DNA from: an uncultured Thermomicrobium sp.
Lineage (GTDB): Bacteria > Chloroflexota > Chloroflexia > Thermomicrobiales > Thermomicrobiaceae
Assembly (NCBI GenBank): GCA_938028665.1
Contig: CALIMB010000056.1
Coordinates: forward strand, 1 to 32,937
DNA length: 32,937 nucleotides
Direction of reading: 5' to 3'
Shown: in pieces, positions 7,568 through 26,665 of the stretch
Layout: each line of letters begins with the position of its first letter
Numbering within the stretch: the first letter of the stretch is position 1
Notes under the pieces: model-generated
Told to the model about the DNA's origin: nothing
Databases searched by the model: none
What the model saw: only the letters and a program-made list of their open reading frames with translations
Made by a program: the position numbers and the translations under genes

Positions 7568-7579
7568 CGGGTCAGCCAG

Positions 7580-8792: not shown

Positions 8793-8820
8793 GCAGGCGG
8801 CGCGAGGCGAAGGGGGCGAC

Positions 8821-9267
8821 ATGAGCGGCGCGGTCGTGACACGGACATCCACACGCGGACTGCGTGTCGATGTTCGGCTCTTCGGGATCGCTGTGGTCAT
8901 TGCGGCAGCAGTCGGATATCTCTTGTATACAGGCCTCCAGGGAACAGCAGCATCTTATTTTGTCACAGTTAGTGAACTTCAAGCGAAAGCGGAGAGCGTG
9001 GATGGTCGACGTGTTCGTGTTGGGGGTGACGTCGTTGCCGGCAGCATTGTGCGCGGTGGGCCGGCGGATCCGATTCGTTTCCGGATCAGTGATGGTAGCA
9101 GCGAGCTTGAGGTCGTCTACGCGGGAGTGTTGCCGGACATCTTTGCTGAAGGACGACATGTGATTGTGGAAGGGTTGTATCGGAGTGGTCAGCCGATTCA
9201 AGCAGACAGCGTTCTCACCCAATGCCCCTCGCGTTTTGAAGCTATGCCGACTGCTCCAACGAGTTGA
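8821..9267 (+). CDS. ccmE: Cytochrome c maturation protein CcmE, Cys-type variant
   Basis: CcmE carries heme covalently outside the membrane and hands it to the CcmF/H ligase. The 148-residue product has one N-terminal membrane anchor (about 18-38) and an OB-fold domain (residues 45-138), with VRVGGDVVAGSI and IRFRISDG as expected. In classical CcmE the heme-binding site is HxxxY; here the same place reads TQCPSRFE, so Cys (C135) replaces His and Phe (F139) replaces Tyr. Cys-type CcmE proteins are known from some bacteria and archaea, usually as CxxxY. The tail after the motif is only nine residues. ATG 8821 follows GGCGAAGGGGGC. Confidence 0.9.
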   Translation: MSGAVVTRTSTRGLRVDVRLFGIAVVIAAAVGYLLYTGLQGTAASYFVTVSELQAKAESVDGRRVRVGGDVVAGSIVRGGPADPIRFRISDGSSELEVVYAGVLPDIFAEGRHVIVEGLYRSGQPIQADSVLTQCPSRFEAMPTAPTS

Positions 9268-9282
9268 GCGAGGGAGTGTTCC

Positions 9283-11268
9283 ATGGCTCACCTCGGATCT
9301 GGCGCGCTGATCCTCGCGCTCATTTTGGCGATCTACGGGATGGTCGCAAGTCTCCTTGGTGCGCGGCGACGAGTACCAGAGCTTCTCCAAAGCGGATATC
9401 GGGCAACATACGCGGTGGCGTTCCTCGTCGCGGTTGCTCTCATCGCGCTGGTGATCGCGTTCGTCCGGCACGATTTCCGTCTCGCGTATGTGGCTGGCCG
9501 TTCTAGTCGCGACATGCCGCTGCATTATGTCATCGCTGCCTTCTACGGGGGCCAAGAAGGGAGCCTGCTCTACTGGACGCTGGTGGCAAGTGGTCTAGGG
9601 GCGTTGGCGCTCTATCTCCACCGACGCTCGGATCGCACGCTTCTCCCGTACATGAACGCCACGCTCCTTTCGGTCGTTACTTTCCTGCTGCTTGTCCTTA
9701 CCGTTGTGTCTAGCCCCTTCCGGCTCCTGCCGGTCACGCCACCTGATGGGGCAGGGCTCAATCCGCTGCTGCGTGATCCGGGGATGATGGCGCACCCGCC
9801 GTTGCTCCTCTCGGGATATGCGGGCTTTACTGTTCCGTTCGCTTTCGGGATGGCTGCACTGATCACTGGGCGGCTCGGGAGCGATTGGTTGCGAGCGATC
9901 CGCCGCTGGACGCTTCTGGCCTGGACGCTCCTTGGTCTTGGCCTTCTCATTGGTGCGTGGTGGGCGTATCACGTCCTCGGCTGGGGCGGTTACTGGGGCT
10001 GGGATCCGGTCGAAAATCTTGCCCTTCTGCCGTGGTTGACCTCGACGGCCTTCCTCCACTCAGTGATTGTGCAGGAGCGCCGCGGCATGTTAAAAGTTTG
10101 GAATCTCGCGTTGCTCCTTGCCACCTTCGCTCTGTCCATTTTCGGCACCTTCATTGTGCGTAGTGGCATGCTGTCATCTGTTCATGCTTTTGCCGTCTCC
10201 AGTATTGGGCACTGGTTTCTCTCGTTTCTCGCGCTCGTTTTGGTTGTGGGTATCGGCTTGTTGGTGTATCGGTTGCCCGGTCTCCAGAGCGAGCGGCAGA
10301 TCGAGTCAGTGAGCTCACGCGAGGCAGGTTTCCTTTATAACAATCTGCTGCTCACCGCGATGGCGTTCGCGGTGTTCTGGGGTACCACGTTTCCACTCTT
10401 CAGTGAGCTCTTTTGGGATACCCGTATCACGGTAGGACCCCCCTTCTACAACCGGGTCGTAGGGCCGCTTTTACTCGTGTTGTTACTTCTTATGGCGATC
10501 GGGCCGCTTCTGGCTTGGCGGCGCACGGATGTGCGACTCCTCCTTCACAATGTGCGTTGGCCAGCAATGACTGGGATCGTTGTCGGACTTATCGGCCTGG
10601 TCGCGTTCAGTCGTCCCTGGGCTGCGGCAGCCTATGCGGTTACGATGATTGCGGCGGGGGTGACACTGCAAGAGTTCTGGCGTGGCATCCAAGCTCGTCG
10701 GCGCAACGCGCGAGAGAACGTGTTTCTTGCCGCATGGGAATTGCTTCGGCGGAATAACCGCCGGTACGGCGGGTACCTCGTGCATCTGGCCATACTGCTC
10801 ATGGCAGTTGGGATCATCGCCTCAAACGCCTTTCAGCTTGAGCGCCAGTTTGTGTTGCGGCCAGGTGAGCAGGGAACAATTGGCCCGTACACCGTTGTTT
10901 ACCGGGGGCTTGAGGATCGACGTATGGCAGACGCCGAAATCGTCGCTGCGCAGGTCGATATCTACCGCGGGCAACGGTACGCGGGGACTGTAGAGAGTTT
11001 CCGGTTCTTCTACCGCAACTATGAGGATCAGCCGACGGCACGCATGGGCATTAAGCTGGTTGGTATGGACGATGTTTATGTGGTGCTTGACCGGTGGCAA
11101 GATGATGGGATGGCGAGTCTGCGCGTGTATGTGAACCCGTTGGTGATCTGGATTTGGATTGGTGGTGTCGTGTTTGTGCTTGGGACGTTAACACTGTTCT
11201 GGCCACAGCCGGTACCGGCTTTGCTCCGTGTCCCGCAAAGCGTCGTCGGAGCGACAAGTGAGGCCTGA
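9283..11268 (+). CDS. ccmF: Cytochrome c heme lyase subunit CcmF
   Basis: A 661-residue polytopic membrane protein (about 15 helices) that binds and attaches heme to apocytochrome c together with CcmH. Family hallmarks include YGGQEGSLLYW (88-98), RDPGMMAHPPLLLSGY (164-179) with the conserved H171, and the tryptophan-rich WWD heme-handling loop WGGYWGWDPVEN (234-245). A large extracytoplasmic domain lies before the last helix (about residues 535-620). Length agrees with family members (about 630-680). The ATG start is preceded by GAGCGAGGGAG. The reading frame is intact and ends one base before the ccmH start. Confidence 0.96.
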   Translation: MAHLGSGALILALILAIYGMVASLLGARRRVPELLQSGYRATYAVAFLVAVALIALVIAFVRHDFRLAYVAGRSSRDMPLHYVIAAFYGGQEGSLLYWTLVASGLGALALYLHRRSDRTLLPYMNATLLSVVTFLLLVLTVVSSPFRLLPVTPPDGAGLNPLLRDPGMMAHPPLLLSGYAGFTVPFAFGMAALITGRLGSDWLRAIRRWTLLAWTLLGLGLLIGAWWAYHVLGWGGYWGWDPVENLALLPWLTSTAFLHSVIVQERRGMLKVWNLALLLATFALSIFGTFIVRSGMLSSVHAFAVSSIGHWFLSFLALVLVVGIGLLVYRLPGLQSERQIESVSSREAGFLYNNLLLTAMAFAVFWGTTFPLFSELFWDTRITVGPPFYNRVVGPLLLVLLLLMAIGPLLAWRRTDVRLLLHNVRWPAMTGIVVGLIGLVAFSRPWAAAAYAVTMIAAGVTLQEFWRGIQARRRNARENVFLAAWELLRRNNRRYGGYLVHLAILLMAVGIIASNAFQLERQFVLRPGEQGTIGPYTVVYRGLEDRRMADAEIVAAQVDIYRGQRYAGTVESFRFFYRNYEDQPTARMGIKLVGMDDVYVVLDRWQDDGMASLRVYVNPLVIWIWIGGVVFVLGTLTLFWPQPVPALLRVPQSVVGATSEA

Positions 11269-11269
11269 G

Positions 11270-11791
11270 ATGAGGGGGTATCAGCGTGTAAGTCGCCGCA
11301 ATGCTGCAGACTTTAAAGCGCTACTCTGGCGAGCATGTGCAGTGCTCCTGATCGTGACGGTGGCGATTGCATCCCATGGGACATCGGCTGTACGGGCCGA
11401 AGAACCACTCTCTCCAGAAGCTTTGGAGATCGCGAATCAGTTGAACTGCCCGGTTTGCCAAGGGCAGAGCGTGCGCGACTCGAACTCCGAGTTGGCGCGG
11501 CAGATGCGGCAGCTCATTCAGCAAAAGCTCGATGCCGGTGAATCGCGTGACGAGATCCTCCAATACTTTGTCCAGCGGTACGGTGTCAGCGTCTTGCGCG
11601 AGCCCCCAAGACAGGGATATCTGTGGTTGCTTTGGTGGGGGCCGGTGGTTGGGCTTGTGATCGGCATCCTCCTGGTCGCTGTCTATTTGCGGCGTCGGGG
11701 TGAATCCTCGAGCAATGGTATGGTGCCTGTGGAACTTGAGGAGCTGGAACGGGTCGAACGGCTGCTCGGCGCGGAAGGAGACGCGCGCTGA
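11270..11791 (+). CDS. ccmH: Cytochrome c maturation protein CcmH
   Basis: The 173-residue product has an N-terminal signal or anchor segment (about 17-36, possible cleavage after VRA), a three-helix thioreductase domain with the family motif LNCPVCQGQSVRDSN (redox cysteines C60 and C63), and a C-terminal membrane helix (about 117-140). It reduces or presents apocytochrome c cysteines to CcmF. I prefer ATG 11270, one base after the ccmF stop, over a GTG at 11228 inside ccmF. Its stop shares one base with the start of the next gene. It is the short, single-domain CcmH with no fused TPR part. Confidence 0.94.
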   Translation: MRGYQRVSRRNAADFKALLWRACAVLLIVTVAIASHGTSAVRAEEPLSPEALEIANQLNCPVCQGQSVRDSNSELARQMRQLIQQKLDAGESRDEILQYFVQRYGVSVLREPPRQGYLWLLWWGPVVGLVIGILLVAVYLRRRGESSSNGMVPVELEELERVERLLGAEGDAR

Positions 11792-12168
11792 TGCTCATGG
11801 GAACTGTTGTCTTGCTCGTGGTTGCCGTTGCTGTCCTGGCTTTTGTGTTGCATCCCCTGTGGGTGGCGAGTCGACGGTCGGTCAGTCCGTCGCCCTATCC
11901 CTCTCGTCTCCTCGACCTTCTGGCTGAGCGTGATGCGATTCTAGCGGCGCTGCGAGATCTGCATTTGGACCATGAGACGGGGAAGGTGACCGAGGGCGAG
12001 TATCAGGTGTTACGTCTGGCGTTGCTGGCGGAGGCCGCGCGCGTGCTGCGTGCGACCGAAGAGCTTGAGCGTGAGCTTGAGTTGAGTATTGAGCAGGAGA
12101 TTACCCAGTTACGCGAATTGGCTCGGCAGGGTGAGTCGAATGCCTCAACGGCCGGTGTTCCAACATGA
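11791..12168 (+). CDS. Short CcmI-like membrane protein
   Basis: A 125-residue protein with one N-terminal membrane helix (about 3-22) followed by a charged helical segment. The stretch LLAERDAILAALRDLHLDHETGKVTEGEYQ matches the pattern of the CcmI/CycH N-terminal region, where RDAxxxALRxLxxDxxTGK is followed by an acidic helix. CcmI normally continues with a TPR domain that chaperones apocytochrome c; here the TPR part is absent, giving a stand-alone membrane-proximal module. Its start overlaps the ccmH stop (TGATG) and its stop overlaps the ccmA start (ATGA), so translation is probably coupled across the three genes. Assignment is moderately sure. Confidence 0.75.
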   Translation: MLMGTVVLLVVAVAVLAFVLHPLWVASRRSVSPSPYPSRLLDLLAERDAILAALRDLHLDHETGKVTEGEYQVLRLALLAEAARVLRATEELERELELSIEQEITQLRELARQGESNASTAGVPT

Positions 12169-12917
12169 ATCTCACCGTCACTCCGCCTAACCTAGATAAG
12201 CGGTCGCCTGGGGAGCCGATTCTCGTGGCGCACGATCTCACCAAGCGGTATGGCTGGAAGCCGGCGCTTGCTGGGGTAAGTTTTGTGGTCTATCCGGCAG
12301 AATGCTTTGTGATTTTCGGTCCGAATGGGGCTGGTAAGACGACCTTGCTTCGGATTTTGGCTGGACTGACTAGACCGAGCGGTGGAGAAGTGCTCTGGTT
12401 TGGCCAGACCCTTGGAGCTAGTGCGCGTGCTGTTCGCTTACAGCTCGGCGTGGTCATGCATCGCACGATGCTCGATCCGGAACTTACGGTAGAGGAGAAC
12501 CTTGACTACTATGCAAAGCTTTACGGAGTCCGAAACCGTCGCGAGCGCATTTCCTGTGTTGCGGCTGAGCTGAATCTGGATGACCGTCTGAAGGACCGTG
12601 TGCGACAACTTTCCAGAGGACTCCAGCAGCGGGTTGCTCTGGCGCGCGCCTTGCTCCATGAGCCAGCGGTACTCCTCTTAGACGAACCGGATACCGGATT
12701 GGATCGTGCGAGCCGCGAGCGACTTATCAGCCTGATCAAGCGACACTGCGCGCAGGGCGGAACGGTGCTTATGACGACGCATGCACAGGAACTTGGCACA
12801 CGTCTTGCCACGCGAGCGATCTACCTCGATCGCGGGAGGATCGCGTGGTCTGCATCAAGTCGTGAAGACATGGAGCGACGACTCCAGGTGACAAGCTTCG
12901 GGCAGGTTCTCGTATGA
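12165..12917 (+). CDS. ccmA: Heme exporter ABC transporter ATP-binding protein CcmA
   Basis: A 250-residue ABC ATPase. Walker A GPNGAGKTT is at 52-60, the signature LSRGLQQRVALARAL begins at 149 (LSRG in place of LSGG), Walker B VLLLDEP is at 169-175, and the switch His is H206. CcmA with CcmB and CcmC loads heme onto CcmE and then releases holo-CcmE by ATP hydrolysis. The gene starts inside the preceding stop (ATGA) and ends inside the ccmB start (ATGA). The sequence alone would only give a generic ABC ATPase; the ccmB and ccmC neighbours settle the name. Confidence 0.93.
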   Translation: MNLTVTPPNLDKRSPGEPILVAHDLTKRYGWKPALAGVSFVVYPAECFVIFGPNGAGKTTLLRILAGLTRPSGGEVLWFGQTLGASARAVRLQLGVVMHRTMLDPELTVEENLDYYAKLYGVRNRRERISCVAAELNLDDRLKDRVRQLSRGLQQRVALARALLHEPAVLLLDEPDTGLDRASRERLISLIKRHCAQGGTVLMTTHAQELGTRLATRAIYLDRGRIAWSASSREDMERRLQVTSFGQVLV

Positions 12918-13582
12918 GCGAGTGGCCCCGGTTCGTGGCTATTGTGCGACGTGATCTTCTCGCTGAGTGGCGGACGCGCGAGGTCGTCGTCGGCATGCTC
13001 GTGATGGCGCTCTTGACGCTCCTCGTGTTCAACTTTGCGTTTGATTTAACTGGGGCACAGCGGGCAGCCAGCGGAGCGGGAGCATTTTGGGTAGCGGTCG
13101 TCTTTGCCACCTTACTCGGCCTCACCCGAGCGGTTGCCCTGGAACGGCAAGAAGGAGCATGGGAGGGGTTACTGCTGGCGCCCGTCGATCGGCCCATCAT
13201 CTTCCTCGCCAAACTTGTGAGCATGCTGCTCTTCGTGTCGCTGGTTGAACTCGTGGCGCTGGTCGTGATGGCCACGCTGTTTGGCCTACCTGTGTTCCGT
13301 CCCGGTGTACTGTTTGTCACGTTTCTTGGGACAGTTGGCCTCTGCACACTAGGAACGTTATTTGCCGTGATGACTGCGAGCCTTCGTGCACGCGAGGTAC
13401 TGCTTCCAGCGTTATTGTTCCCACTCAGCGTACCGGTAGTCATTGGAGCGGTGCGGGCGACAACACTTGAGCTGAGCGGCATTGGAAATGAAGCGGGGCC
13501 ATGGAAGAGCTTGCTCGCAGGATTCGCCGTACTGTTCTTTGGCATCGGCGCACTCACGTTTAGTGTGGCGGTCGAAGAGTAA
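12914..13582 (+). CDS. ccmB: Heme exporter membrane permease CcmB
   Basis: A 222-residue integral membrane protein with about six helices, the usual CcmB size. The N-terminal part reads VAIVRRDLLAEWRTREVV, and the cytoplasmic ALERQEGAWEGLLLAPVDR segment after helix 2 is a strong CcmB family feature that contacts the ATPase. A short VTFLGTVGLCTLGTLF helix and a PLSVPVVIGAVRAT segment follow, also typical. It overlaps ccmA by four bases and is followed by ccmC after 28 nt with a strong GGAAGGAGGAG site. Confidence 0.93.
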   Translation: MSEWPRFVAIVRRDLLAEWRTREVVVGMLVMALLTLLVFNFAFDLTGAQRAASGAGAFWVAVVFATLLGLTRAVALERQEGAWEGLLLAPVDRPIIFLAKLVSMLLFVSLVELVALVVMATLFGLPVFRPGVLFVTFLGTVGLCTLGTLFAVMTASLRAREVLLPALLFPLSVPVVIGAVRATTLELSGIGNEAGPWKSLLAGFAVLFFGIGALTFSVAVEE

Positions 13583-13610
13583 CGACCAGGACGAACGGAA
13601 GGAGGAGCTT

Positions 13611-14324
13611 GTGACGCAGCGGCGATTTTCGGCACAAGGATCGTTAAACTGGCTGTCGTTGCTTGCTAGAGCGTCAGTTGTCCTCGTGGCGCTTTCAGTG
13701 GTACTGATCTTTCTGTATGCGCCGCGGGATGGAACGCAAGGTGACGTCCAGCGACTGTTCTATCTTCATTTGCCGACGGCATGGTTGGCCTATGCTTCAT
13801 TCTTCATTATCTTTGTGAGCAGTATCGCGTATCTGCTGCGAGGCACCACGCGGTGGGACCGACTCGCCCGCTCGGCTGCTGAACTCGGATTTATTTTCAC
13901 GACACTCGTGCTCCTCACAGGTTCGATCTGGGGTCGCCCAATCTGGGGAACTTGGTGGACTTGGGACGCGCGCCTCACAACGACATTGATCCTGTGGTTC
14001 ATTTATCTCGGGTACTTTCTGCTCCGCGCTTATGTCTCGGATCCGGAACGAGGGGCTCGCTATGCAGCCGTGTTGGGGATTGTCGGCTTTGTTGATATCC
14101 CAATCATTCATATGTCTGTCCGCTGGTGGCGAACACTGCACCCGCAGCCGATTGTTGTGCGGAGCGAAGGGCCAGCCATGCCGCCAGAAATGTTGACGAC
14201 GTTGCTGGTTACCCTGGTGGCTTTTTGTCTCCTTTACATCTTCCTCCTCGTGATGAAGTATCGGATCGAGTCTGCGCGTGACGAGGTGATGGCGCTTCGT
14301 GCGGTGCTGGATGGTGGAGAGTGA
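13611..14324 (+). CDS. ccmC: Heme exporter membrane protein CcmC
   Basis: CcmC delivers heme to CcmE. The 237-residue product has six membrane helices, the WWD loop WGTWWTWDARLTTTLILW (112-129), and two candidate axial heme ligands, H53 in YLHLPTAW and H167 in IIHMSVRWW, matching the two conserved His of the family. The GTG start at 13611 is chosen because GGAAGGAGGAG lies a few bases upstream; longer in-frame starts would run inside ccmB and add a polar, unrelated stretch. Its stop is 13 nt before ccmD. Confidence 0.95.
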   Translation: MTQRRFSAQGSLNWLSLLARASVVLVALSVVLIFLYAPRDGTQGDVQRLFYLHLPTAWLAYASFFIIFVSSIAYLLRGTTRWDRLARSAAELGFIFTTLVLLTGSIWGRPIWGTWWTWDARLTTTLILWFIYLGYFLLRAYVSDPERGARYAAVLGIVGFVDIPIIHMSVRWWRTLHPQPIVVRSEGPAMPPEMLTTLLVTLVAFCLLYIFLLVMKYRIESARDEVMALRAVLDGGE

Positions 14325-16487: not shown

Positions 16488-18146
16488 TCACGTGTCATGC
16501 TCAGGTCGTCCTGCCGCAGGGCCGGCAATGAATCGGCAGGAGGCACAATACTGAGCCAGGTTCTCGCGAAGGCCAGGGGACTCGTTCCCCAACAGTGCCA
16601 TGACACGATCGACCATCCGTGCTGGCGCGATTGAAGCACCACATCTGACACAGCGTGTTACCCGATCCTGGGCCAAAACCCGTGGGCCTGCCAAAAGCTG
16701 CTCCCAGCTGATCATCCGGTGCACACGAATTGCGCCTCGTGTCTGTTCGGGGCAGACGCTGACGCACTGTGCGCAGGCGATGCAGGACGCTGCCTCAAAG
16801 CGGAGTGTCCAGTGCTCTGCTGTCGTCTCGGCCTGGAGAGCCTCAGTGGGGCAGATAGCAGCACAGAGCCCACACGCGGTGCACACGGCCTGATCGATCT
16901 GGACAATGCCGAGAGGTGCCGCGTGGTGTGCAAAAGCGCTCTGCTGGCTCGGAGAACTCGCACCTGAGGGATCTGACCCGAGTCGTGCGAGCTCCAACAG
17001 GAGGCTTGCGATGATCTTCGGTTGTAGACTGAACACTGCCCCTGGTGGTTCGGGATATCTCCGGAGGGACTGAATATCGCTCCGTTCAGCCACTGGCCCT
17101 GAAGCATCTATGGGTCGAAACTGAATAAGATCAGAGGGGAAGCCGACCGCTTGGAGAAAGTGCTGTGCAAACTGGACCCGCTCCTCAATCGTTTGGGTCA
17201 GCGCCGGCGGGCAGTGTGCTGAGCAGGGTAAGACGCCAACCACGCTTGCGCCGAGCAGGAGCGGAGCAAGATACCAGGTTGGTGGCACCATCGCCACACA
17301 GGGAAGCCGGACAGGTAGCCATCCGGGCTGCACTGCGGCGAGAGTTGTTGCAACCTCTTCACAGACATAAAGAAGCCCATAAGGCTGCACCTCCCCCGGC
17401 TCTGGTGCGAGCAACGCGCGCACTTGGGCTTCAATTTGGGCGCTCGTCGATCCTGGGAAGAAGAGAGCCTCCCGAGGACAGGTGGTGACGCAAAAAGCAC
17501 ACGATTGACACCGCATTTTTTCAAGGACGATTTCACCGTCCTGAGGTTGGAGAGCGCCATGGGGACAAGCTTGTGCACACAGTGTACAACCGCGCTCCGC
17601 CGCGCACTGGCGACGGAGAATGGAGGGAACTGTCTCATTGGTCAGAAGCGGTAGACCCAAGAAACCGCGACGACTCAGACGATGAGGTAGGCGCGGTTTC
17701 ACGTTGTCGACGCTACTTCCGGGATAGCTTCGCACCTTGGCTACTGCTCCCGCCAGAAGGCGGCGGGCCGTTCTTGTCGCGGTCTCAGGGTCGGTCGGCC
17801 CGACGATCGCTACACCCAGATTCACCGTCTCTAGCCCGAGCGGGTCTAGACCAGCTTGACGGACCTGCGCGGCAATGCGCTCGAGATGGCGTTGTTCTCG
17901 GCAAAGTCCGAATACGATGCGATCGACAGCCAAAGCGGCCAGGAGGTCTGGTAGTCCAGCAGGCCTGGCGGTACACAGCTGCGGTACCACCCGAAGAACC
18001 ACCGCAGGATCGTGTTCCGCAAACCATTGTTGGATTGCCGCGAGGTTCACGGCGTTGCCGAGGCCCTCCACATGCTCACACAGGAGGATTGCGATGCGAA
18101 GCGATGAGTTAGGCTGCTCTGCCCCGTTGCCACGAAGAGCGGTCAT
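16488..18146 (-). CDS. HdrA/MvhD-like polyferredoxin, four 4Fe-4S motifs
   Basis: This 552-residue protein is an electron relay of mixed architecture. Residues 15-120 resemble the N-terminal domain of heterodisulfide reductase HdrA (Cys at 23, 58 and 82; DRIVFGLCREQRH then LGLETVNL). Two 4Fe-4S motifs follow (C181, C187, C190, C194; C213, C216, C219, C223). Next comes an MvhD/FlpD-like domain (258-346; C262, C283, C308, C312), then two more clusters (C422, C425, C428, C432; C455, C458, C461, C465). A C-terminal CxxC pair (C499/C502 and C534/C537) looks like a zinc ribbon or rubredoxin-like knuckle. A twin-arginine-like SRRGFLGL sits internally at 158-165. It is the last gene of the operon, 2 nt after the chaperone gene. 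A cytoplasmic electron-transfer role is inferred; partner and direction are unknown. Confidence 0.82.
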   Translation of the reverse strand: MTALRGNGAEQPNSSLRIAILLCEHVEGLGNAVNLAAIQQWFAEHDPAVVLRVVPQLCTARPAGLPDLLAALAVDRIVFGLCREQRHLERIAAQVRQAGLDPLGLETVNLGVAIVGPTDPETATRTARRLLAGAVAKVRSYPGSSVDNVKPRLPHRLSRRGFLGLPLLTNETVPSILRRQCAAERGCTLCAQACPHGALQPQDGEIVLEKMRCQSCAFCVTTCPREALFFPGSTSAQIEAQVRALLAPEPGEVQPYGLLYVCEEVATTLAAVQPGWLPVRLPCVAMVPPTWYLAPLLLGASVVGVLPCSAHCPPALTQTIEERVQFAQHFLQAVGFPSDLIQFRPIDASGPVAERSDIQSLRRYPEPPGAVFSLQPKIIASLLLELARLGSDPSGASSPSQQSAFAHHAAPLGIVQIDQAVCTACGLCAAICPTEALQAETTAEHWTLRFEAASCIACAQCVSVCPEQTRGAIRVHRMISWEQLLAGPRVLAQDRVTRCVRCGASIAPARMVDRVMALLGNESPGLRENLAQYCASCRFIAGPAAGRPEHDT

Positions 18147-18148: not shown

Positions 18149-18898
18149 CTACACCTCATCCACCTGGGAAAGCAAGATAGCAAGGAGGTCAAGATCATGC
18201 CGAACAAGCGCGGTTGCGGCCTCTGCTGCAGCGGAATACACACCGGTCATGTCATCGTGGACGAGTCGACGTGCGAGCTCAGGAAGCCACGAGCCCACGA
18301 ACGTATCGAGAAAATGCCGCTCTTGCTGCAGTATGGCACGGAGGTGTGCGGCGGCTCGGGCTTGCCACGCTTCTGCCTCGTACGCGCAGAGCGCCGCAAC
18401 GAATTCGAGCTCGATAGCGAGGTGGTCAGGAAGCTCATGCATCTGAGGTGCGAGAACGAATCCTGCTGTTCGGTACTGCTGTTCGACCTGGAGAGAAATA
18501 AAGCCTGCCAAGCGGCGGTCGGGATCGAGGTAGCTCGAAGCATAGAGTGAGCAGCTTGGGCGACCGCCGGGGCCGATGACAAAGAGCGAGGTGTAGGCTC
18601 GCAGAAGCTCGGCCACGTTTGGAGGATGCTCGTTCGTCAGGTGGTCAAGCAGGGGCTGCCAGTGGAGATACCAGTGGAAGTGGGCAAGCAAGGCTCGATC
18701 CGCCCGGATTGTCCTTGCAGCCTCAAGCAGTTGTCGGTAGCGGTCCTCATCGGGAGGAAGATATATCACGGCCAGGAAGCGATAGAGGGCTCGGCGTAGT
18801 GTCGCCAACTGAGCCCAGGCAGCCGGATCAGGAGCAGCCAAGCGGGTCGCTGGCTGCCCCTGAGCCGGTCGTTTTCCCTCTGTGTTCCTTCTGGTCAT
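18149..18898 (-). CDS. TorD/DmsD-family molybdoenzyme maturation chaperone
   Basis: A 249-residue, mostly helical cytoplasmic protein. The family core is visible: YTSLFVIGPGGRPSCSLYAS (about 102-121) and the helix beginning ELPDHLAIELEFVAAL (155-170), which matches the E-x-x-DHL-x-x-ELEF signature of TorD-like proteins. Such chaperones bind the Tat signal of a DMSO-reductase-type enzyme, help insert bis-MGD and hold back export until folding is complete. The obvious client is the Tat-tagged catalytic subunit encoded in the same operon. The ATG overlaps the preceding stop (ATGA). The first 25 residues are polar and not part of the fold. Confidence 0.9.
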   Translation of the reverse strand: MTRRNTEGKRPAQGQPATRLAAPDPAAWAQLATLRRALYRFLAVIYLPPDEDRYRQLLEAARTIRADRALLAHFHWYLHWQPLLDHLTNEHPPNVAELLRAYTSLFVIGPGGRPSCSLYASSYLDPDRRLAGFISLQVEQQYRTAGFVLAPQMHELPDHLAIELEFVAALCAYEAEAWQARAAAHLRAILQQERHFLDTFVGSWLPELARRLVHDDMTGVYSAAAEAATALVRHDLDLLAILLSQVDEV

Positions 18899-19098
18899 TG
18901 GACTTGCCTGTCCGGGAGAAGCTCATAGACAACCGCTGCCAGGAAGACGAGCATCACTCCTAGGATAAATAAAGCAGGGGCAAAGGGGATGCGTGGGTTA
19001 CTGTAGACGGGATCCCAGGGTGCAGTGAGGAAAAAGTATGTGATGAACTGCAGGAAGAAACCCAAGAGCACCATCGCGATAGTGAGTACTGTTCGCAT
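18895..19098 (-). CDS. Small two-helix membrane protein in molybdoenzyme operon
   Basis: A 67-residue hydrophobic protein of unrecognised family. Two membrane helices (about 4-24 and 40-60) flank a short loop, TAPWDPVYSNPRIPF, with several Pro and aromatic residues. ATG at 19098 overlaps the NrfD stop by one base (TGATG) and AAGGAG lies seven bases upstream; a GTG one codon earlier is also possible. Its stop overlaps the chaperone start. Tight coupling between the membrane anchor and the chaperone genes suggests that it is a small accessory subunit of the membrane part, but no function can be assigned from sequence. Confidence 0.8.
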   Translation of the reverse strand: MRTVLTIAMVLLGFFLQFITYFFLTAPWDPVYSNPRIPFAPALFILGVMLVFLAAVVYELLPDRQVQ

Positions 19099-20588
19099 CA
19101 CGCAGCTCCTTCCTCATGAGCGTGTACTTCCATCACGGGAAAGATCTTAAAGAAAAGAGTGTAAAGTAAAGCGCCGAGTGCGAAGAGTCCCACAATGATG
19201 CTAATCTCACTCCATGTTGGTTGATACCAGCCTGTTCCATATGGCAAGAGGTTGCCATGTGTCTGCGAAGGTACTACGATCAGTATTCGCTTGCCAATCG
19301 CGGCCAAGTTGACCAAAATTCCGGCAATGACGCTCGCAGCCACAAGATTACGGCTCAGGTACGGGAGAGAGAGCACGAGGGCAAGAAGAGCCAGAACGGC
19401 AGCCACGGAGGCGAGCCACCGTGCAGTTGTCGCCGAGAATGGCGAGATCAGGTCAAGACCCTGAAGAGCTAGTAGTCCCGTAAGGAGAAGAGCTCCAATC
19501 AACAACAGCACTGGCCAGCGTGGCGACACACTTGGTAGACGTGTCTGGACATTTGTGGGTAAGAACCGGAGAGAGAGGACTAGGGCTCCAAGGACGAGTC
19601 CGGTCACCGAACCCCAAAAGAGCCAGGCATACTCTCCGACGAGCAAGCTCCGCGAGATCTCAGCCTCGTGGCGGGTTCCGGTATACAGGGTTGTCAGGAG
19701 TTCAGCGACCATGAAGTACAGATAGACAACAGTCAGGAAAAGAAGCAGCGTTCCCAACCAACGAAAGATTCCTACATGCACCTCTTTACCCTCGGGGAGT
19801 GTGACACGCATAATGGCCGCAATAATCAGCAGGAGTCCGATGCCCGAAACTCCAGCCAGCACGACAAAACCGGGGGCTTGAAGAGTGCTATACCAGCCCG
19901 GGCGACCAGACTGGATCCCAAAGACAAATCCCAGCGTCGAGTGAGCCGTGACGAGGAGGGGGACAATGGCAAGAGCGAGCCAGAGTGTCACCCGCTCGTG
20001 GCGGGCGCGCTCTGCCGGGGTATCACGGTACCCTGCTGCCCAGAGGCGGTAGAAGCCTTGGAGTCGACTGGGACGGCGAGCCATGAGCGCCGCATCACGC
20101 CGGCCATCTAGATAGAGGTAGACGAGACTCGCAAAGAGATATCCTGAGACGACCAGGCTGAAAGTTCCAAAGAATGGTGATTGCGGTCGAGCATAACGAA
20201 ACAAGTTGATGATTCCCCGTAATGGCTGTCCGAGGTCAGCCACAACACAGGACGCTGCCAGAATCAGGGCAATGATGGTCAATGCCTCTGCCATCCGTGA
20301 CACGGGTCGAAGGTGATCAAGATGGAAAAGCCGAATCAGTGCTGCGACGGTGATTCCGGCGAAGCTTACCCCGACGAAGTAGATAACGAAGGCGACGTAC
20401 AGTCCCCACGTCGCTCCACCCATCGTTCCGATGTCACGGAGTCCCTTAACCACAAGACCCTCTGCAAGCTGGTGAGCATAGGCAAAAAGGCCCCAAACCA
20501 CAACACCAGTGAGCACAGCAAGGAGGATGAGGAAACGGTGAGAAAAGCGACCAACACCGTAGGGAAGGGCATGAGGCTGCTCAGCCAT
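19098..20588 (-). CDS. nrfD: NrfD/PsrC-family quinone-interacting membrane subunit
   Basis: A 496-residue polytopic membrane protein with about ten helices. NrfD/PsrC proteins bind menaquinone or ubiquinone near the outer face and pass electrons to or from the ferredoxin subunit. Family-like features include GLYVAFVIYFVGVSFAGI in helix 2 and the CVVADLGQPLRGINLF-type segment (CVVADLGQPLRGIINLF), close to the DLGxP motif of NrfD proteins. The protein is longer than the roughly 320-residue NrfD/PsrC and closer to the 400-500-residue class seen with ActC- and DsrP-like complexes. ATG 20588 lies two bases after the ferredoxin gene stop, so translation is coupled. Direction of electron flow cannot be read from sequence. 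Confidence 0.9.
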   Translation of the reverse strand: MAEQPHALPYGVGRFSHRFLILLAVLTGVVVWGLFAYAHQLAEGLVVKGLRDIGTMGGATWGLYVAFVIYFVGVSFAGITVAALIRLFHLDHLRPVSRMAEALTIIALILAASCVVADLGQPLRGIINLFRYARPQSPFFGTFSLVVSGYLFASLVYLYLDGRRDAALMARRPSRLQGFYRLWAAGYRDTPAERARHERVTLWLALAIVPLLVTAHSTLGFVFGIQSGRPGWYSTLQAPGFVVLAGVSGIGLLLIIAAIMRVTLPEGKEVHVGIFRWLGTLLLFLTVVYLYFMVAELLTTLYTGTRHEAEISRSLLVGEYAWLFWGSVTGLVLGALVLSLRFLPTNVQTRLPSVSPRWPVLLLIGALLLTGLLALQGLDLISPFSATTARWLASVAAVLALLALVLSLPYLSRNLVAASVIAGILVNLAAIGKRILIVVPSQTHGNLLPYGTGWYQPTWSEISIIVGLFALGALLYTLFFKIFPVMEVHAHEEGAA

Positions 20589-20590: not shown

Positions 20591-21328
20591 CTATACCCTC
20601 ACTCTCACCTCTTCGATCTGATGCGATTCGCTGCTCGGTGGATGTCCACCAACATAATAGACCCGCGGCTCAGTTCCCAACTCCTCGAGCAACCGAAATG
20701 AGGGCTTGCGACGGAGGAGTTGGGAAACAGTGCTGTTTGGATCATCAAGGTCACCAAAATGGAGCGCGAAGAGCGGGCAGTTTTGGACACACGCTGGTTT
20801 CTGCCCGCGTTCAACTCGGTGCACACAGAAGGTGCATTTCTCGATCACGCCCTTGAGCCGTCCGCCACCAGCTGTTCGGCGGCGCTCAGCACCGTACGGC
20901 TGATCGAGGTCCGGGTTGCGGTAAGGGGGCACGGCTCCACCGGTGACTTCCTGAACGTCTTTGGCCTGCCAGTCTAAATAATAGTTCTTGGACGGCTTCT
21001 TCCAGTTGAAGTAGTTCACCCCATATGGACAAGCAACTTCGCAGTACCGGCAGCCGATGCAACGGTCCCAGTCCGTTGCTACTAACCCATCAACACGCTT
21101 GTAGCGGGCACCCACTGGGCAGACCTTGGCACACGGCGGATTGTCACAGTGCATGCAGGGACGAGGCATGAACCAGATGTGCGTGTTGGGATAGTGACCT
21201 TCCTCGAAGCGGAAGACGTACATCCAGAAGTTGGCTTGGGGTGTGTTGTTTTCCACTTTGCAGGCCATCATACAGGCGCGGCATCCGGTGCAGCGATCAA
21301 GATCAATCACCATCGCATAGCGAGCCAT
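20591..21328 (-). CDS. 4Fe-4S ferredoxin subunit of molybdoenzyme, DmsB/PsrB type
   Basis: The 245-residue electron-transfer subunit carries four cubane cluster motifs: C13-C16-C19-C23, C58-C61-C66-C70, C90-C93-C96-C100 and C165-C168-C180-C184. Spacing matches the DmsB/PsrB/NrfC family. The usual cluster order (ligands swapped between pairs I/IV and II/III) would wire the catalytic subunit to NrfD. There is no signal peptide, so it is probably exported by riding on the Tat-tagged catalytic partner. I chose ATG 21328, with AAGGAAGG upstream and 16 nt after the catalytic stop. The longer in-frame ORF to 21640 runs over the catalytic gene and adds unrelated sequence. Confidence 0.94.
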   Translation of the reverse strand: MARYAMVIDLDRCTGCRACMMACKVENNTPQANFWMYVFRFEEGHYPNTHIWFMPRPCMHCDNPPCAKVCPVGARYKRVDGLVATDWDRCIGCRYCEVACPYGVNYFNWKKPSKNYYLDWQAKDVQEVTGGAVPPYRNPDLDQPYGAERRRTAGGGRLKGVIEKCTFCVHRVERGQKPACVQNCPLFALHFGDLDDPNSTVSQLLRRKPSFRLLEELGTEPRVYYVGGHPPSSESHQIEEVRVRV

Positions 21329-21344: not shown

Positions 21345-23906
21345 TTACTTGTACACCCGTACTTTGACGTGGAACGACTGGTCGGAGGTGTTGGCGACAT
21401 AGCCTTCACCGGTGAAGAAGAGACTATTGGCTGCTGCGCCATTGGCTGCAGCCCAGGGATGGCGAACGGCTTCGCCGAAATGATGAGGTATGGCCACGGT
21501 ATCAGGTCGAATCCCTTCCCGATAGCGCGCAACAATTCGGACTCTGCGTGTCTCCCCGGTGAGCGCGTTATGCGACTCAACCCAGACCTCGTCACCGTCC
21601 TGAATTCCCCGTTCTCGAGCGGTGCGCGGGTTGATATCAAGCCACGCCCTAGGGGCTAACTCGGCCAGGAGAGGAATCTGTGCGGAGCGCGATTGCTTAT
21701 GTTCAATGAGTTTATAGCTAATGAGATACAGGTCATAGGTCGGCGGCGATTCCTCCATAGTGGGTTTGCGCCAGGTGGGGAAGGGGGTATAGTCACGCCA
21801 ATAACTGGTATCGACTCCCCGCTGTTGCATGTCCCGCTGATAGCGAAGCAGCGATTCGCCGTACAAGCGGTGCCGAACACCGCCAAAGGGTGGATCAGTC
21901 ACGTATCCGTAAAACTTCTTTGGTGGGATTGGTCCCGCAACTTTGACCCCATACTTTTCGAAGTAGGCGACGCCTTCGGAGATACCCGCCGACTTCGCCC
22001 ACCGATCAAAGATTTCTCTGACAGTCGGCTTACGGTCGAGAGGGAGACGGTGTTCGTCGCTCAGATGAAGTGCCTTATTGACCTGGTCAAGGTACCCTCC
22101 TGGGCCATAGAGAATTCCTGCCTTCTCGCAGAGATCAAGGTAAATCTCGATTTCACCGCGACTTTGAAAGAGCGGTTCCATTACCGGGAGGCGCAGTGCA
22201 GTGGCATCAAGGTACTGATCGCTCGCCGCAGCTGGTCCCTCATATTTCTCGAGAACGGCGGCTGGTAAGACGACGTCGGCGAAGAGATCAGCGGTCGTCG
22301 AGAGCCACGCGTCAATGACGACCACAAATTTGAATTTCTTGTACCCCTCGAAGAGGTCGGGTGTTGATGCGAAGGCAGCGAGCGGATTACACATGTGGAT
22401 GATAATGACTTCTGGGATATAATCAACACCATACTTATCGGGATTTTGCATAACCTTTGCGACGATAGCTGAACTGTTGCTATTGATAGGGAAGTAAGGG
22501 GAATCCTTCAGATAAATATTATACGGTGGATCCTTAATCTGAATCTTGTCAAGCTTTTCAAAGTTCTCGTGAAGCTTCCATGGGCCGAGGTCGATTCGCT
22601 GCCCGCCGGCAGCTCCGATTGCCCCCAGAAGCATCATGATGAGGAGCATGGCGCGAACTGCTTGAAAGCCAAGCTCTTGCTGGGCAACGTGATACGTCAT
22701 AATTGCCACCGGGCGATACGGCACCTCGATACCATCGATGACGATGGTACTCCCGATTCGCGCGTTTTCACCCAGCTCTTGAGCCAGCCGCTCGATCGCT
22801 TCAGCGGGCACTCCACAGATCTCTGCTGCCCATTCAGGTGTATACTGCGCAACATGCTCCCGAAACAGTTGGAACGCTGGTTTGGCCGACCTGCCATCAA
22901 CCAGGTATTCTCCCTCCAAAGCGGGCACGATTCCGGGTGCATCGTAGGGGCGCGGCGCATTGCTCGCCATATCCCATACAAGTTCCTTCCCATGGTGCCG
23001 CAAGAAGAAGCCATCTTCTCCAACGAGGAAAGGCGCATTGGTGTACTGGCTAAGATAAGCGCGATCTATCGTGTCCCGAGCAATCAGTTGCTGACACAGT
23101 GCCAAAGCAAGCGCAAGATCGGTCGCTGGCCGAATGGGTAGCCATTCATCGGCAAAATGGCCAGCACCGCGCAAGCGGGGATCGATCGCGACAAGTTTCA
23201 TGCCCCGCTCTTTAGCCTGAATCAATTGCTGCGGCCACGTGATCCAACAGAGTCGGTTTCCCCCAGCAGCGGTAAGATTCCAACCCCACGCGAGCACGAA
23301 TTGCGTATACCGAAAGTCCGGATGAAGTCCGCCGGAGAGACCGATCGTATATTCACTGGCACGGTAGGCTGCGTCAGAGCAGAATGCTCCGTGAGTGAGT
23401 TTCGTCGCTCCCGATGCCTTCACAAACGCTTCGTCGTAGAACGGCTTGGCTTTACTGCGCCCCTTCTGCCACACGAGAAGGCGGGGATCACGTTCACGAA
23501 CCTCCCGGATCTTCTGCGCCACTATGGTCAACGCCTCGTCCCAGGAAGCTTGCCGCCACTGGCCGGGGATCCCCTTCTCGTTGGTCCGGATCAGCGGCGT
23601 CTTGACCCGGTTGGGATCGTACAGTGCCATAATCTGCGCGACCCCTTTGGGGCAGAGTGTTCCCCGGTTCCGCGGATGATCCGGGTGACCATAGAAGTTT
23701 ACGACTCGTCCATCAATGCGTCTGGCCACCATGCCGCAGTCTTGCTTGCCAATCCAGCAGGTGGTGGGAATCCAGTCTTCTTTTGGTGAGGACCCTGATT
23801 GCTGGGCGACGAGCGTCTCAAGTTGCCTACTGAGAAAGTGACTCGCAAGTAGTCCTCCGCCGGCTGTTGCGGAGCCTTTGAGAAATGTTCTTCTCTTGAT
23901 TCTCAT
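21345..23906 (-). CDS. Tat-exported molybdopterin oxidoreductase catalytic subunit
   Basis: An 853-residue member of the DMSO reductase superfamily (bis-MGD, Mo or W). The N-terminus has a twin-arginine signal, KRRTFLKG (residues 4-11), plus a weak hydrophobic stretch. The FS0 region reads TTCWIGKQDCG: C50 and C57 are present but the expected Cys at 53 is Gly; the fourth ligand C85 is in GTLCPKG. The residue expected to bind Mo is C176 in THGAFCSDAA, as in polysulfide, thiosulfate, tetrathionate and arsenate reductases and unlike the Ser or Asp classes. The C-terminal MGD domain (about 735-853) shows LDINPRTARERGIQDGDEVWV. ATG 23906 follows GAGGTGAG; an upstream in-frame start adds 28 polar residues before the Tat motif and is rejected. 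The substrate cannot be named; sulfur or arsenic oxyanions are possible. Confidence 0.93.
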   Translation of the reverse strand: MRIKRRTFLKGSATAGGGLLASHFLSRQLETLVAQQSGSSPKEDWIPTTCWIGKQDCGMVARRIDGRVVNFYGHPDHPRNRGTLCPKGVAQIMALYDPNRVKTPLIRTNEKGIPGQWRQASWDEALTIVAQKIREVRERDPRLLVWQKGRSKAKPFYDEAFVKASGATKLTHGAFCSDAAYRASEYTIGLSGGLHPDFRYTQFVLAWGWNLTAAGGNRLCWITWPQQLIQAKERGMKLVAIDPRLRGAGHFADEWLPIRPATDLALALALCQQLIARDTIDRAYLSQYTNAPFLVGEDGFFLRHHGKELVWDMASNAPRPYDAPGIVPALEGEYLVDGRSAKPAFQLFREHVAQYTPEWAAEICGVPAEAIERLAQELGENARIGSTIVIDGIEVPYRPVAIMTYHVAQQELGFQAVRAMLLIMMLLGAIGAAGGQRIDLGPWKLHENFEKLDKIQIKDPPYNIYLKDSPYFPINSNSSAIVAKVMQNPDKYGVDYIPEVIIIHMCNPLAAFASTPDLFEGYKKFKFVVVIDAWLSTTADLFADVVLPAAVLEKYEGPAAASDQYLDATALRLPVMEPLFQSRGEIEIYLDLCEKAGILYGPGGYLDQVNKALHLSDEHRLPLDRKPTVREIFDRWAKSAGISEGVAYFEKYGVKVAGPIPPKKFYGYVTDPPFGGVRHRLYGESLLRYQRDMQQRGVDTSYWRDYTPFPTWRKPTMEESPPTYDLYLISYKLIEHKQSRSAQIPLLAELAPRAWLDINPRTARERGIQDGDEVWVESHNALTGETRRVRIVARYREGIRPDTVAIPHHFGEAVRHPWAAANGAAANSLFFTGEGYVANTSDQSFHVKVRVYK

Positions 23907-24326: not shown

Positions 24327-24926
24327 TCATTCACTGGGGATATCCTCGCCAGACGCCTTGTTCTGTTTCTCGCGGCGGAGGTGGTACGGCTCGAGGTGCC
24401 GCTGCAGATCGTTCAAACCGGTCCCGTGTCGTGTTCTCTGCCAGTCTTGGAGAATGACAAGGTCATGAGGGAAGGCGAGAGGTGGTAAGGCATCCAGCGG
24501 GAACCACGCCACCGCGCTACTTTCCTCACTGGCTTGCAGCTGACCACCAACGACGCGCGCTTGATACACGGCAAGAACGACTGGATGCCCACGGTGAGAA
24601 TAAAGCCCCACCAGTCGTTCCAGTTCGACAAGAAGTCCGGTCTCTTCACGGACTTCCCGCAGCGCGGCCTCCTCAACTACTTCACCCCGGTCCACAAATC
24701 CCGAAGGAAAGCTCCAAAGCCCGATCCCTGGCTCAATCGCCCGTCGCTGCAAGACAATTTGGCCCTCATGGTAGATAATGACGGCAACAGCAAGTTTGGG
24801 ATCGCTGAAAAAGGGACGGGCGCAGGCGGGGCAGTAGGGACGTTCCCGACCAGCGATGAGGCGCAGCTCTAACTCGCTGCGACAATAGGGGCAGTAGCGA
24901 ATATCATCTGCAAGGCTTGATGTCAT
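24327..24926 (-). CDS. Nudix hydrolase with N-terminal zinc ribbon
   Basis: A 199-residue protein. A zinc-ribbon (C12, C15, C32, C35; YCPYC and YCPAC) precedes a Nudix domain with a complete box at 76-98 (GFVDRGE, seven residues, then REVREETGL). Nudix enzymes hydrolyse nucleoside diphosphates linked to another moiety. The zinc ribbon recalls NADH pyrophosphatases, but the SQPWPFP motif of NudC is not seen after the box, so an ADP-ribose or dinucleotide substrate is as likely. ATG 24926 overlaps the stop of the MocA-like gene (ATGA); a GTG at 24950 is an alternative. Position beside the cofactor genes suggests housekeeping of nucleotide cofactors, by context only. Confidence 0.88.
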   Translation of the reverse strand: MTSSLADDIRYCPYCRSELELRLIAGRERPYCPACARPFFSDPKLAVAVIIYHEGQIVLQRRAIEPGIGLWSFPSGFVDRGEVVEEAALREVREETGLLVELERLVGLYSHRGHPVVLAVYQARVVGGQLQASEESSAVAWFPLDALPPLAFPHDLVILQDWQRTRHGTGLNDLQRHLEPYHLRREKQNKASGEDIPSE

Positions 24927-25537
24927 GAGTGACGAGCTCGCTCCTGACACGTGCGACGGGCGCGTTCGACATCCTCCGCGGTATCGAGATCAAGTGGGCT
25001 CGCAAGTGCCGGGATTTCGCATTCGACGATCTCCTGAGCGTGAGCAGCCAGTACAGGTCTGGCCCCAGTGTCACCCTGGAGAGCCATCAACTCTGAGAAA
25101 AGGTCGCGGGCGATCAGCACTGGATTGCCCGGGCCGTCGACGTATCGCGGACGCACAATGGGTGCTTGGGTGCACTCGAAGCAATCGATGATCCGATTGA
25201 TCACCGCGGGGTCAACGAACGGCTGATCACCAAGAAGGAACAGCACTGCATCCACGTTGGGTGGCAGTTGAGCAAGTCCAACATGGACTGACGTACTCTG
25301 CCCTTCGTGGGCTCGTTCGTTAATGACAAGGTTGACACCGCTCATCTCAAGTGTTTTGGCAACTTGAGCAACAGCGGGATTCAAAACAAGAATGATCGGA
25401 TCAAGGCGTGAGTGGCGAGCGGCGTCCAAGACGTATTGCAGCGCAGGCTGCCCACAGAGGTTGACCAGCTGCTTGGGTTGACCGAGCCGACGCGAGAATC
25501 CGGCAGCTAAGATGATTCCCGCGACCTTTGCCACCAC
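24923..25537 (-). CDS. mocA: MocA-like molybdenum cofactor cytidylyltransferase
   Basis: A 204-residue nucleotidyltransferase of the MobA/MocA group. The NTP-binding loop LAAGFSRRLG is at 10-19, with K22 just after, and the metal-binding LLGDQP is at 101-106. MocA-type enzymes attach CMP to molybdopterin to give the cytosine dinucleotide used by CO dehydrogenase and other xanthine-oxidase-family enzymes; adjacent cox and XdhC genes favour this over a MobA (GMP) role. The GTG start at 25537 is preceded by AGAGGAG and lies 19 nt after the previous stop. A longer ORF to 25651 would overlap the upstream gene and is rejected. Confidence 0.85.
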   Translation of the reverse strand: MVAKVAGIILAAGFSRRLGQPKQLVNLCGQPALQYVLDAARHSRLDPIILVLNPAVAQVAKTLEMSGVNLVINERAHEGQSTSVHVGLAQLPPNVDAVLFLLGDQPFVDPAVINRIIDCFECTQAPIVRPRYVDGPGNPVLIARDLFSELMALQGDTGARPVLAAHAQEIVECEIPALASPLDLDTAEDVERARRTCQERARHS

Positions 25538-25556
25538 AAGAGCTCCTCTGGCCCTG

Positions 25557-26348
25557 CTAGCTACCTTTACCAGAGATGACCGCAACTGAAGACTTTGCCG
25601 GTCGAGGCTGAGGGCTGTACCGTCCACGACGCACTGCAATGATCTCAGCAAGGATACTTAAAGCAATTTCCTGCGGAGTCTTGGCTCCAATATCAATGCC
25701 GATTGGAGCATGGATCCGGCGCAGATCCTCATCGGTAAATCCAGCGCGACGCAGTCGATCCACACGCTGCTGACTTGTCTTCCTGCTGCCAATTGCTCCG
25801 ATGTAGCCCGCACGTGAGCGCAACGCAACGTGCAAAGCGGGGTCCTCAAACTTCTCGTCGTGTGCCAGAATAACAATGTCCGTCTGCGGCGTAATCTTGA
25901 TCTGAGTAAGCGCTTCATCCGGCCAGGCCACAATGAGGTGGTCTGCGTGCGGGAAACGCTCGCGGGTCGCGAAGAACGCGCGGGCATCAATAACTGTTGT
26001 GCGGTAGCCAAGTTCCTTCGCCATAGCTACTAGCGGAATCGCGATGTGGACCGCACCAATCACCACCAAATGCCGCGGAGGAAGATGTGCCTCAAGGAAG
26101 ACCTCAACTTCGCGGCCATCGGAAAGACGGTAGGTCCGCGTCTCTGCTTCACCGCTTTGGAGGAGCCTCTCGGCATCGCTGAGGACGGCGGCTTCGAGCT
26201 CTTCCGAGCCGAGCGATCCGACCGTCCGTCCGTGCTCGAACACCAGGAGTTTGGCACCAAGAGGTTCACCCCTGATGACGGTTGCGCAGACAACAGCTTC
26301 TTCCTCGTGCAAGGCTTGCCGGAGGGCAGAAAAGACTTCGCCACTCAT
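25557..26348 (-). CDS. XdhC/CoxI-family protein with Rossmann domain
   Basis: A 263-residue member of the XdhC/CoxI family, which inserts or sulfurates the Mo cofactor of xanthine-dehydrogenase-type enzymes. Residues 1-88 form an N-terminal domain in which the usual catalytic-looking cysteines are missing (GSEELE where GGCVE is expected; SDGREVEVFLE where SCGG is expected). Residues 92-230 form the Rossmann part with VVIGAVHIAIPLVAMAKELG and VIDAR. The C-terminal PIGIDIGAKTPQEIALSILAEI block is characteristic. It overlaps the short XdhC-type gene by four bases (ATGA), suggesting the two proteins act together. The name coxF or coxI could apply. Confidence 0.88.
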   Translation of the reverse strand: MSGEVFSALRQALHEEEAVVCATVIRGEPLGAKLLVFEHGRTVGSLGSEELEAAVLSDAERLLQSGEAETRTYRLSDGREVEVFLEAHLPPRHLVVIGAVHIAIPLVAMAKELGYRTTVIDARAFFATRERFPHADHLIVAWPDEALTQIKITPQTDIVILAHDEKFEDPALHVALRSRAGYIGAIGSRKTSQQRVDRLRRAGFTDEDLRRIHAPIGIDIGAKTPQEIALSILAEIIAVRRGRYSPQPRPAKSSVAVISGKGS

Positions 26349-26665
26349 GCCTTTCTCACCAATGGTTCAACAAAGACATCGATGGTCCCACCGCAACTAA
26401 GCCCAACATCCCAGGCCTGCTCATCGCTGATCCCGTAGCGGACGAGTCGTGGCTGTCCAGTTTCCAGGACCTCAAGTGCGACTTCGAACACCGCGCCTTC
26501 CACGCAACCACCGCTCACTGAACCAGCCATCCGCCCGGAGCGTGTCACGGCCATCTTGGCCCCGAGGGGGCGAGGTGAGGAGCCGATCGTTCGCACCACA
26601 GTGGCGAGGGCGATCTCTTCACCCTCACTGATCCAGCGTTCGATTTCTGGAAGAATGTCTCGCAT
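26345..26665 (-). CDS. Single-domain XdhC/CoxI N-terminal protein
   Basis: A 106-residue protein corresponding to only the XdhC_CoxI domain. It has the conserved GSSPRPLGAKM (28-38), SGGCVEGAV (51-59, with C54) and LSCGG (89-93, with C91). In XdhC these segments are needed for sulfurated cofactor handling, so this small protein carries the cysteines that its downstream neighbour lacks, while the neighbour carries the Rossmann domain. Starts at ATG 26665, 20 nt after coxE, with GGAGGGAGAG just upstream. It is complete for this family's single-domain form and not a truncated pseudogene. Confidence 0.88.
   Translation of the reverse strand: MRDILPEIERWISEGEEIALATVVRTIGSSPRPLGAKMAVTRSGRMAGSVSGGCVEGAVFEVALEVLETGQPRLVRYGISDEQAWDVGLSCGGTIDVFVEPLVRKA

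Follow-up and report, generated by a model that had tools for sequence, protein, structure and literature searches.

A composite polyferredoxin that adjoins TorD-type chaperone genes and may assist in the assembly of exported molybdoenzymes

Results

The molybdoenzyme operon

The window, that is the whole stretch of 32,937 nucleotides analysed here, contains on its minus strand an operon in which the genes follow one another in the order MopB, FeS, NrfD, a 67-aa membrane protein, TorD and, as the last gene, a composite polyferredoxin that we refer to as PolyFd. MopB (21345..23906, minus strand) is the catalytic subunit of a PhsA/PsrA-like molybdopterin oxidoreductase and carries the Tat signal KRRTFLKG. 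It is followed by a four-cluster iron-sulfur subunit that resembles DsrO, ArrB and PsrB (20591..21328, minus strand), the start of which was placed at MARYAMVIDLDRC by homology, and by a 496-aa membrane anchor of the NrfD/PsrC type (19098..20588, minus strand). The TorD/NarJ-family chaperone, of 249 aa (18149..18898, minus strand), ends 2 nt before the start codon of PolyFd. Between nrfD and torD lies the unannotated gene for the 67-aa protein (18895..19098, minus strand), which falls below length cut-offs and overlaps both of its neighbors by 1-4 nt. Its product has two likely membrane segments, judged by eye, and recurs in some 48 related loci. Pfam assigns this protein to no family, the match to DUF3098 (E 0.014) being under the cut-off; its position is reminiscent of that of NapE beside NapF and NapD.

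Elsewhere in the window, positions 24327-32793 (minus strand) hold genes for the large, medium and small subunits of an aerobic CO-dehydrogenase-like enzyme, together with XdhC/CoxI, MobA-like, MadB/MadC-like ATPase and VWA protein genes. Positions 845-14324 (plus strand) hold ATP synthase genes and then genes that by eye are ccmF-, ccmE-, ccmH-, ccmB- and ccmC-like.

PolyFd is encoded at 16488-18146 (minus strand) as a protein of 552 aa with an ATG start. Homologues were found at 24-55% identity and reveal strong constraint on this reading frame, which is real at these coordinates and on this strand. A scan of genome contigs with PolyFd as a single sequence returned no confirmed relative.

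Domain make-up and metal ligands

From its N terminus to its C terminus, PolyFd comprises the N-terminal domain of HdrA, 2x[4Fe-4S], MvhD/FlpD and again 2x[4Fe-4S] domains, and lastly a metal site of four Cys. This is the order claimed in the initial annotation, and it is borne out by sequence profiles and by fold comparison. For the profile comparisons, a family profile was built from 10 Chloroflexota homologues and searched against solved structures. The HdrA N-terminal domain (17727..18098, minus strand; aa 17-140) matched 9sfi_A with an i-E of 8e-7 when the single sequence was used and of 2.7e-14 with the family profile. The first 2x[4Fe-4S] domain (17478..17606, minus strand; aa 181-223) is of the HdrA C-terminal type, and its first motif has the unusual spacing C-x5-C-x2-C-x3-C. 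The MvhD/FlpD domain (17100..17363, minus strand; aa 262-349), with C262, C283, C308 and C312, passes the curated cut-off of Pfam PF02662 (FlpD) with E 3e-5. Here the family profile matched MvhD (9sfi_K) over 120 of 134 residues with E 2.6e-11, and in an archaeal relative the FlpD model was matched over its full length with E 5e-27. The second 2x[4Fe-4S] domain (16752..16883, minus strand; aa 422-465) is of the HycF type, and it is followed by a HycF-type CxxC-x31-CxxC metal site (16536..16652, minus strand; aa 499-537), C499-x2-C502-x31-C534-x2-C537. This C-terminal part matched HycF both when the family profile was compared with solved structures (7z0s_F, E 1.8e-17) and by structural alignment (7z0t_F, Z 14.2, 127 of 136 residues). 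Similarity to HdrA and MvhD outside the ferredoxin motifs is therefore found by Pfam, by profile and by structure, and such a set of domains with such conservation cannot have arisen by chance.

The four cubane sites that had been proposed are likewise confirmed by the conservation of their ligands: 15 of the 16 Cys residues are kept in all 56 homologues and the remaining one in 55. The four Cys of the MvhD part are kept in 52-56 of the 56 and form a site that could hold the [2Fe-2S] cluster suggested earlier. Less constant are the Cys residues of the HdrA N-terminal domain (34-48 of 51-52 homologues). C23, C58 and C82 align with Cys residues of HdrA, C82 is often His in the homologues, and His25 of PolyFd takes the place of the second Cys in the CxC of HdrA.

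All 56 homologues retain the four C-terminal Cys residues, as do 37 of 37 archaeal and formate-dehydrogenase-linked relatives. This site had been described as a zinc knuckle; four Cys are indeed present, but the site is better described as the metal site of HycF. In HycF, subunit 6 of formate hydrogenlyase (FHL), a single metal ion, tentatively iron, lies on the patch that faces the molybdoenzyme FdhF, and it has been proposed that the redox state of this site controls the binding of FdhF (PMC9474812). The resemblance to HycF covers the last 130 residues of PolyFd, that is, the 2x[4Fe-4S] domain and the CxxC...CxxC site, with a spacing of CxxC-x34-CPxC in HycF versus x31 in PolyFd, and the remainder of PolyFd is unrelated to it. 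Further, HycF sits with a membrane-bound [NiFe] hydrogenase, whereas the PolyFd operon has no hydrogenase genes.

Apparent excision of the flavin core of HdrA

As the initial annotation had noted, the FAD-binding core of HdrA is missing; in HdrA this core is thioredoxin-reductase-like and is the electron-bifurcating site. PolyFd contains no GxGxxG, HdrA residues 139-575 have no counterpart in it, and there is no room for an FAD domain because only about 40 residues separate the HdrA N-terminal part from the first cluster domain. The AlphaFold model of PolyFd (pLDDT 82, pTM 0.84) found as its best structural matches, in this order, HdrA, HycF and MvhD. With VIA-align, residues 16-247 of the model superposed on residues 12-654 of HdrA (Z 19.6, 204 residues, 2.4 A). 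Since a single superposition covers HdrA 12-654, both ends of HdrA are fitted at once with the flavin core absent. The family profile gave the same picture with a 665-aa HdrA encoded in another Chloroflexota locus, L031, residues 12-143 aligning with HdrA 3-138 and residues 155-240 with HdrA 576-664. Structural matches with Z of 7-8 (NMDA receptor, lumazine synthase and others) were set aside as common Rossmann-like arrangements.

The order of the N-terminal part, the C-terminal 2x[4Fe-4S] domain and MvhD is the same in PolyFd as in HdrA and HdrA2 (the HdrA-MvhD fusion), and the two HdrA parts have the same spatial arrangement. PolyFd differs in that the whole FAD core (residues ~139-575 of HdrA) is absent and in its additional second ferredoxin domain and metal site. 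It looks as though PolyFd descends from an HdrA-MvhD fusion, from which the flavin core was deleted and which was joined to a HycF-like tail. In L031 (positions 1-6533), genes for HdrA, HdrB, HdrC and a second HdrA set adjoin a MopB-FeS-NrfD-PolyFd operon that has no torD, an arrangement that may offer a clue to the origin of the composite protein.

A twin-arginine-like motif

PolyFd contains the twin-arginine-like motif S-R-R-G-F-L (17655..17672, minus strand; aa 159-164) at the site from which the FAD core of HdrA is missing. The pattern SRRx[FL][LF] is present in 47 of 56 members of the bacterial type and in 20 of 20 from Thermoproteota, and it is similar to the Tat motif that the cognate MopB carries. 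It is not universal in the family, as it occurs in none of the 16 formate-dehydrogenase-linked members (haloarchaea and Variovorax). An inheritance of the motif from HdrA was also rejected, SRRx[FL][LF] being found in 0 of 11 HdrA proteins. Because the motif is internal, it is unlikely to direct the export of PolyFd.

Distribution and partner genes

Related operons were gathered by scanning genome contigs with an alignment of MopB, which yielded 80 loci from many phyla. PolyFd is present in 46 of the 55 MopB operons for which more than 6 kb downstream of MopB was available. In all 46 of these it lies directly 3' of torD, mostly overlapping it by a few bases. It is absent from the other nine, eight of which have torD. 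The PolyFd operon is kept in Chloroflexota, Acidimicrobiia, Rokubacteria, NC10, Nitrospinota and Armatimonadota. In two Chloroflexota loci (L029 and L031) PolyFd follows nrfD with no recognised torD, and L031 lies beside hdrABC-type genes, as described above.

The enzyme that accompanies the torD-PolyFd pair is variable. In Variovorax and haloarchaea the pair lies beside MopB genes of the formate-dehydrogenase type. Thermoproteota possess NrfD-MopB-FeS-TorD-PolyFd sets with a giant MopB, which measures 1240-1434 aa in the operons of the homologues L188-L200. In four other Thermoproteota contigs PolyFd occurs with mobB, with torD near and with mobA and moeA in two to three of them, and no MopB was seen within view of these mobB-linked copies. 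The type of membrane anchor also varies, between NrfD and a cytochrome-b-type FdhC, while torD stays. As the type of MopB changes, or MopB is absent, and torD is kept, the constant partner of PolyFd is the chaperone and, more broadly, the assembly of the molybdenum cofactor. Where MopB lies beside torD-PolyFd it is nearly always Tat-type, 67 of 75 by a strict pattern and the other eight by eye. The converse does not hold: PolyFd was rejected as a two-way marker of Tat-type enzymes, as Thermoproteota have many Tat-type MopB genes without it. Given these genes and its absence from 9 of 55 operons, PolyFd is not generally required.

Four Thermoproteota polyferredoxins (L185, L187, L190 and L192) have a different N-terminal domain and have kept the twin-arginine motif; no molybdoenzyme, torD or molybdenum-cofactor gene was recognised near them.

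Comparison with known polyferredoxins

A survey of torD-fdh operons found that 43% contain additional genes, for example for lipoproteins and hypothetical ferredoxins (PMC4464133). These ferredoxins (fer4) pair with torD as PolyFd does, and the Variovorax and Haladaptatus members are homologues of it; their annotations go no further than "4Fe-4S protein" or "hydrogenase iron-sulfur subunit". In the literature we found no functional or domain analysis of the torD-fdh ferredoxins and, for proteins of the PolyFd type, no described function past "unknown".

NapF, from the periplasmic nitrate reductase system, provides a second point of comparison. Like PolyFd it has four cubane motifs, and its gene lies beside those for a signal-peptide chaperone and a Tat-exported MopB. 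In NapF from seven species the same SRRxxL motif is N-terminal, just before the first cluster (20-30 residues ahead of it), whereas PolyFd has it in its interior, at aa 159. NapF is only ~165 aa long, without the HdrA-N, MvhD and HycF-type parts, and its system uses NapD as the chaperone in place of TorD. With the NCBIfam NapF model TIGR00402 (an equivalog) PolyFd scored 42.6 bits, where the cut-off is 102.2, and since this is far too low PolyFd is not NapF by descent. Among the matches, a NapF-like 4Fe-4S protein (~30% identity) was seen on many Escherichia coli plasmids (hits H32-H42).

The third comparison is with SreD, from the sulfur reductase (SR) operons sreABCDE of Acidianus ambivalens and Thermoproteus tenax. 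These operons have a gene set equivalent to that of the PolyFd operon, comprising a Tat-type MopB, FeS, a membrane anchor, a polyferredoxin and a NarJ/TorD-type chaperone. The gene order is different, and SreA1 is of 100 kDa, smaller than the MopB (1240-1434 aa) of the Thermoproteota PolyFd operons. Published work lists SreD as a polyferredoxin without assigning it a function (PMC3189178; likewise PMC8551704). Among the Thermoproteota MopB loci, the PsrA-type operons had no adjoining torD or PolyFd, and no protein could be matched to a named SreD. Going by gene set and published description, PolyFd is probably the same kind of protein as SreD.

Discussion

The domain reading of the initial annotation stands, but its picture of a long wire within a bifurcation or hydrogenase/Hdr complex finds no support in the gene context. 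The constant neighbor of PolyFd is a TorD-type chaperone and MopB is Tat-signalled; the mature enzyme should therefore face the outside, out of reach of a cytoplasmic wire. In bacteria and archaea PolyFd is nearly always encoded next to the chaperone that assembles an exported molybdenum enzyme. It is therefore most likely a cytoplasmic aid to assembly and not an electron wire that stands on its own, and by analogy it most likely operates like NapF without being NapF. NapF is cytoplasmic, carries four clusters and binds NapA, and in R. sphaeroides it is needed for the Fe-S cluster of NapA before Tat export (PMC10609526, PMC4159696). By this analogy we think it fairly probable that PolyFd is a cytoplasmic accessory or assembly factor that serves, together with TorD, a Tat-exported bis-MGD molybdoenzyme.

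Such a factor might work as follows. PolyFd, in which no export signal was seen, would stay in the cytoplasm, and its HycF-like C-terminal half would dock on MopB, as HycF does on FdhF. Ahead of the insertion of the molybdenum cofactor that TorD oversees, or in the course of it, the cubanes of PolyFd could then provide apo-MopB with its [4Fe-4S] cluster, load this cluster or check its redox state. The internal SRRx[FL][LF] motif may contact TorD or the Tat system in the manner of a signal peptide, and this contact would couple the status of the cluster to release for export. The motif-contact step cannot be general because the haloarchaeal and Variovorax forms lack the motif. An independent hint of a maturation role comes from T. 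tenax, in which the Tat-type SR operon has sreD and sreE and the Tat-less paralogous operon has neither (PMC3189178). Gene adjacency alone does not prove maturation, and the MvhD domain, for which a factor that only delivers clusters has no obvious need, counts against it.

A bolder proposal, which we regard as improbable, is that PolyFd is a dismantled bifurcating enzyme that serves as an export checkpoint, an imitation Tat signal (SRRx[FL][LF]) having replaced the flavin core of HdrA-MvhD. TorD or the Tat system would then take the motif for a second signal peptide, and TorD and MopB would be held in the cytoplasm until the clusters of PolyFd report that the Fe-S site of MopB is filled.

PolyFd might instead be a cytoplasmic electron-transfer subunit, which takes up electrons from a donor in the cytosol and hands them on to the NrfD/FeS/MopB enzyme, or draws them from it. 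Four conserved cubanes and a likely [2Fe-2S] cluster would make a plausible wire, SreD is annotated as an "FeS electron transfer protein" in T. tenax (PMC3189178), and HycF is itself an electron relay in FHL (PMC9474812). This role is nevertheless unlikely. Given the Tat signal of MopB, the catalytic and FeS subunits should be outside, the anchor changes between NrfD and FdhC while torD is constant, and some copies of PolyFd accompany moeA, mobA and mobB with no enzyme. Moreover, judging from PsrC, we know of no cofactor in NrfD that would carry electrons across the membrane.

It is also conceivable, although we give the idea rather little weight, that PolyFd senses redox state or oxygen and, acting through the chaperone, gates whether the molybdoenzyme is exported or expressed, with no supply of clusters. 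The surplus of clusters, the overlap of its gene with torD and the twin-arginine-like motif would suit a sensor, as would a metal site of the HycF type, proposed to regulate FdhF binding by redox (PMC9474812). The precedent of NapF favors a direct role in cluster assembly (PMC10609526).

Finally, the fold of residues 16-247, which superposes on HdrA and is followed by an MvhD domain, and the hdrABC-type genes that adjoin PolyFd in L031 might point to a flavin-free HdrA/MvhD-type adaptor that joins a hydrogenase or an Hdr-like complex in another part of the cell. A search of the genome did find candidate complexes, though none is linked to the PolyFd gene. Contig C14 (L036:8972-12007) encodes the large, small and FAD/NAD subunits of a sulfhydrogenase-type (3b-like) NiFe hydrogenase, and contig C72 (L035:1845-13863) an sHdr-like cluster with HdrC, HdrB and a short HdrA (356 aa). 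The latter cluster, which suggests sulfur oxidation or a related pathway, also encodes a fusion that resembles HdrC and HdrB, EtfB-like and HdrD-like proteins, a lipoate-protein ligase and a protein of 278 aa that by eye may belong to DUF1641. We consider an adaptor very doubtful: the candidate complexes are encoded on contigs other than that of PolyFd, the hydrogenase is not of the Mvh kind, the genome has no FlpD/MvhD besides PolyFd, the PolyFd operon has no mvhA/mvhG or HdrABC partner genes, and most homologues adjoin torD, not hdrBC or mvhAG.

With an assembly factor as the preferred interpretation, these data join SreD and the "hypothetical ferredoxins" of torD-fdh operons (PMC4464133) with a wide bacterial and archaeal family, of which TorD is the constant partner. 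In its make-up PolyFd looks like a clear case of an electron-bifurcating flavoprotein that was reused after the loss of its flavin core. A polyferredoxin dedicated to this task and inherited alongside the chaperone would allow the order in which Fe-S clusters and the molybdenum cofactor are loaded ahead of Tat export, a matter described as unsettled (PMC10609526), to be tested directly in strains amenable to engineering.
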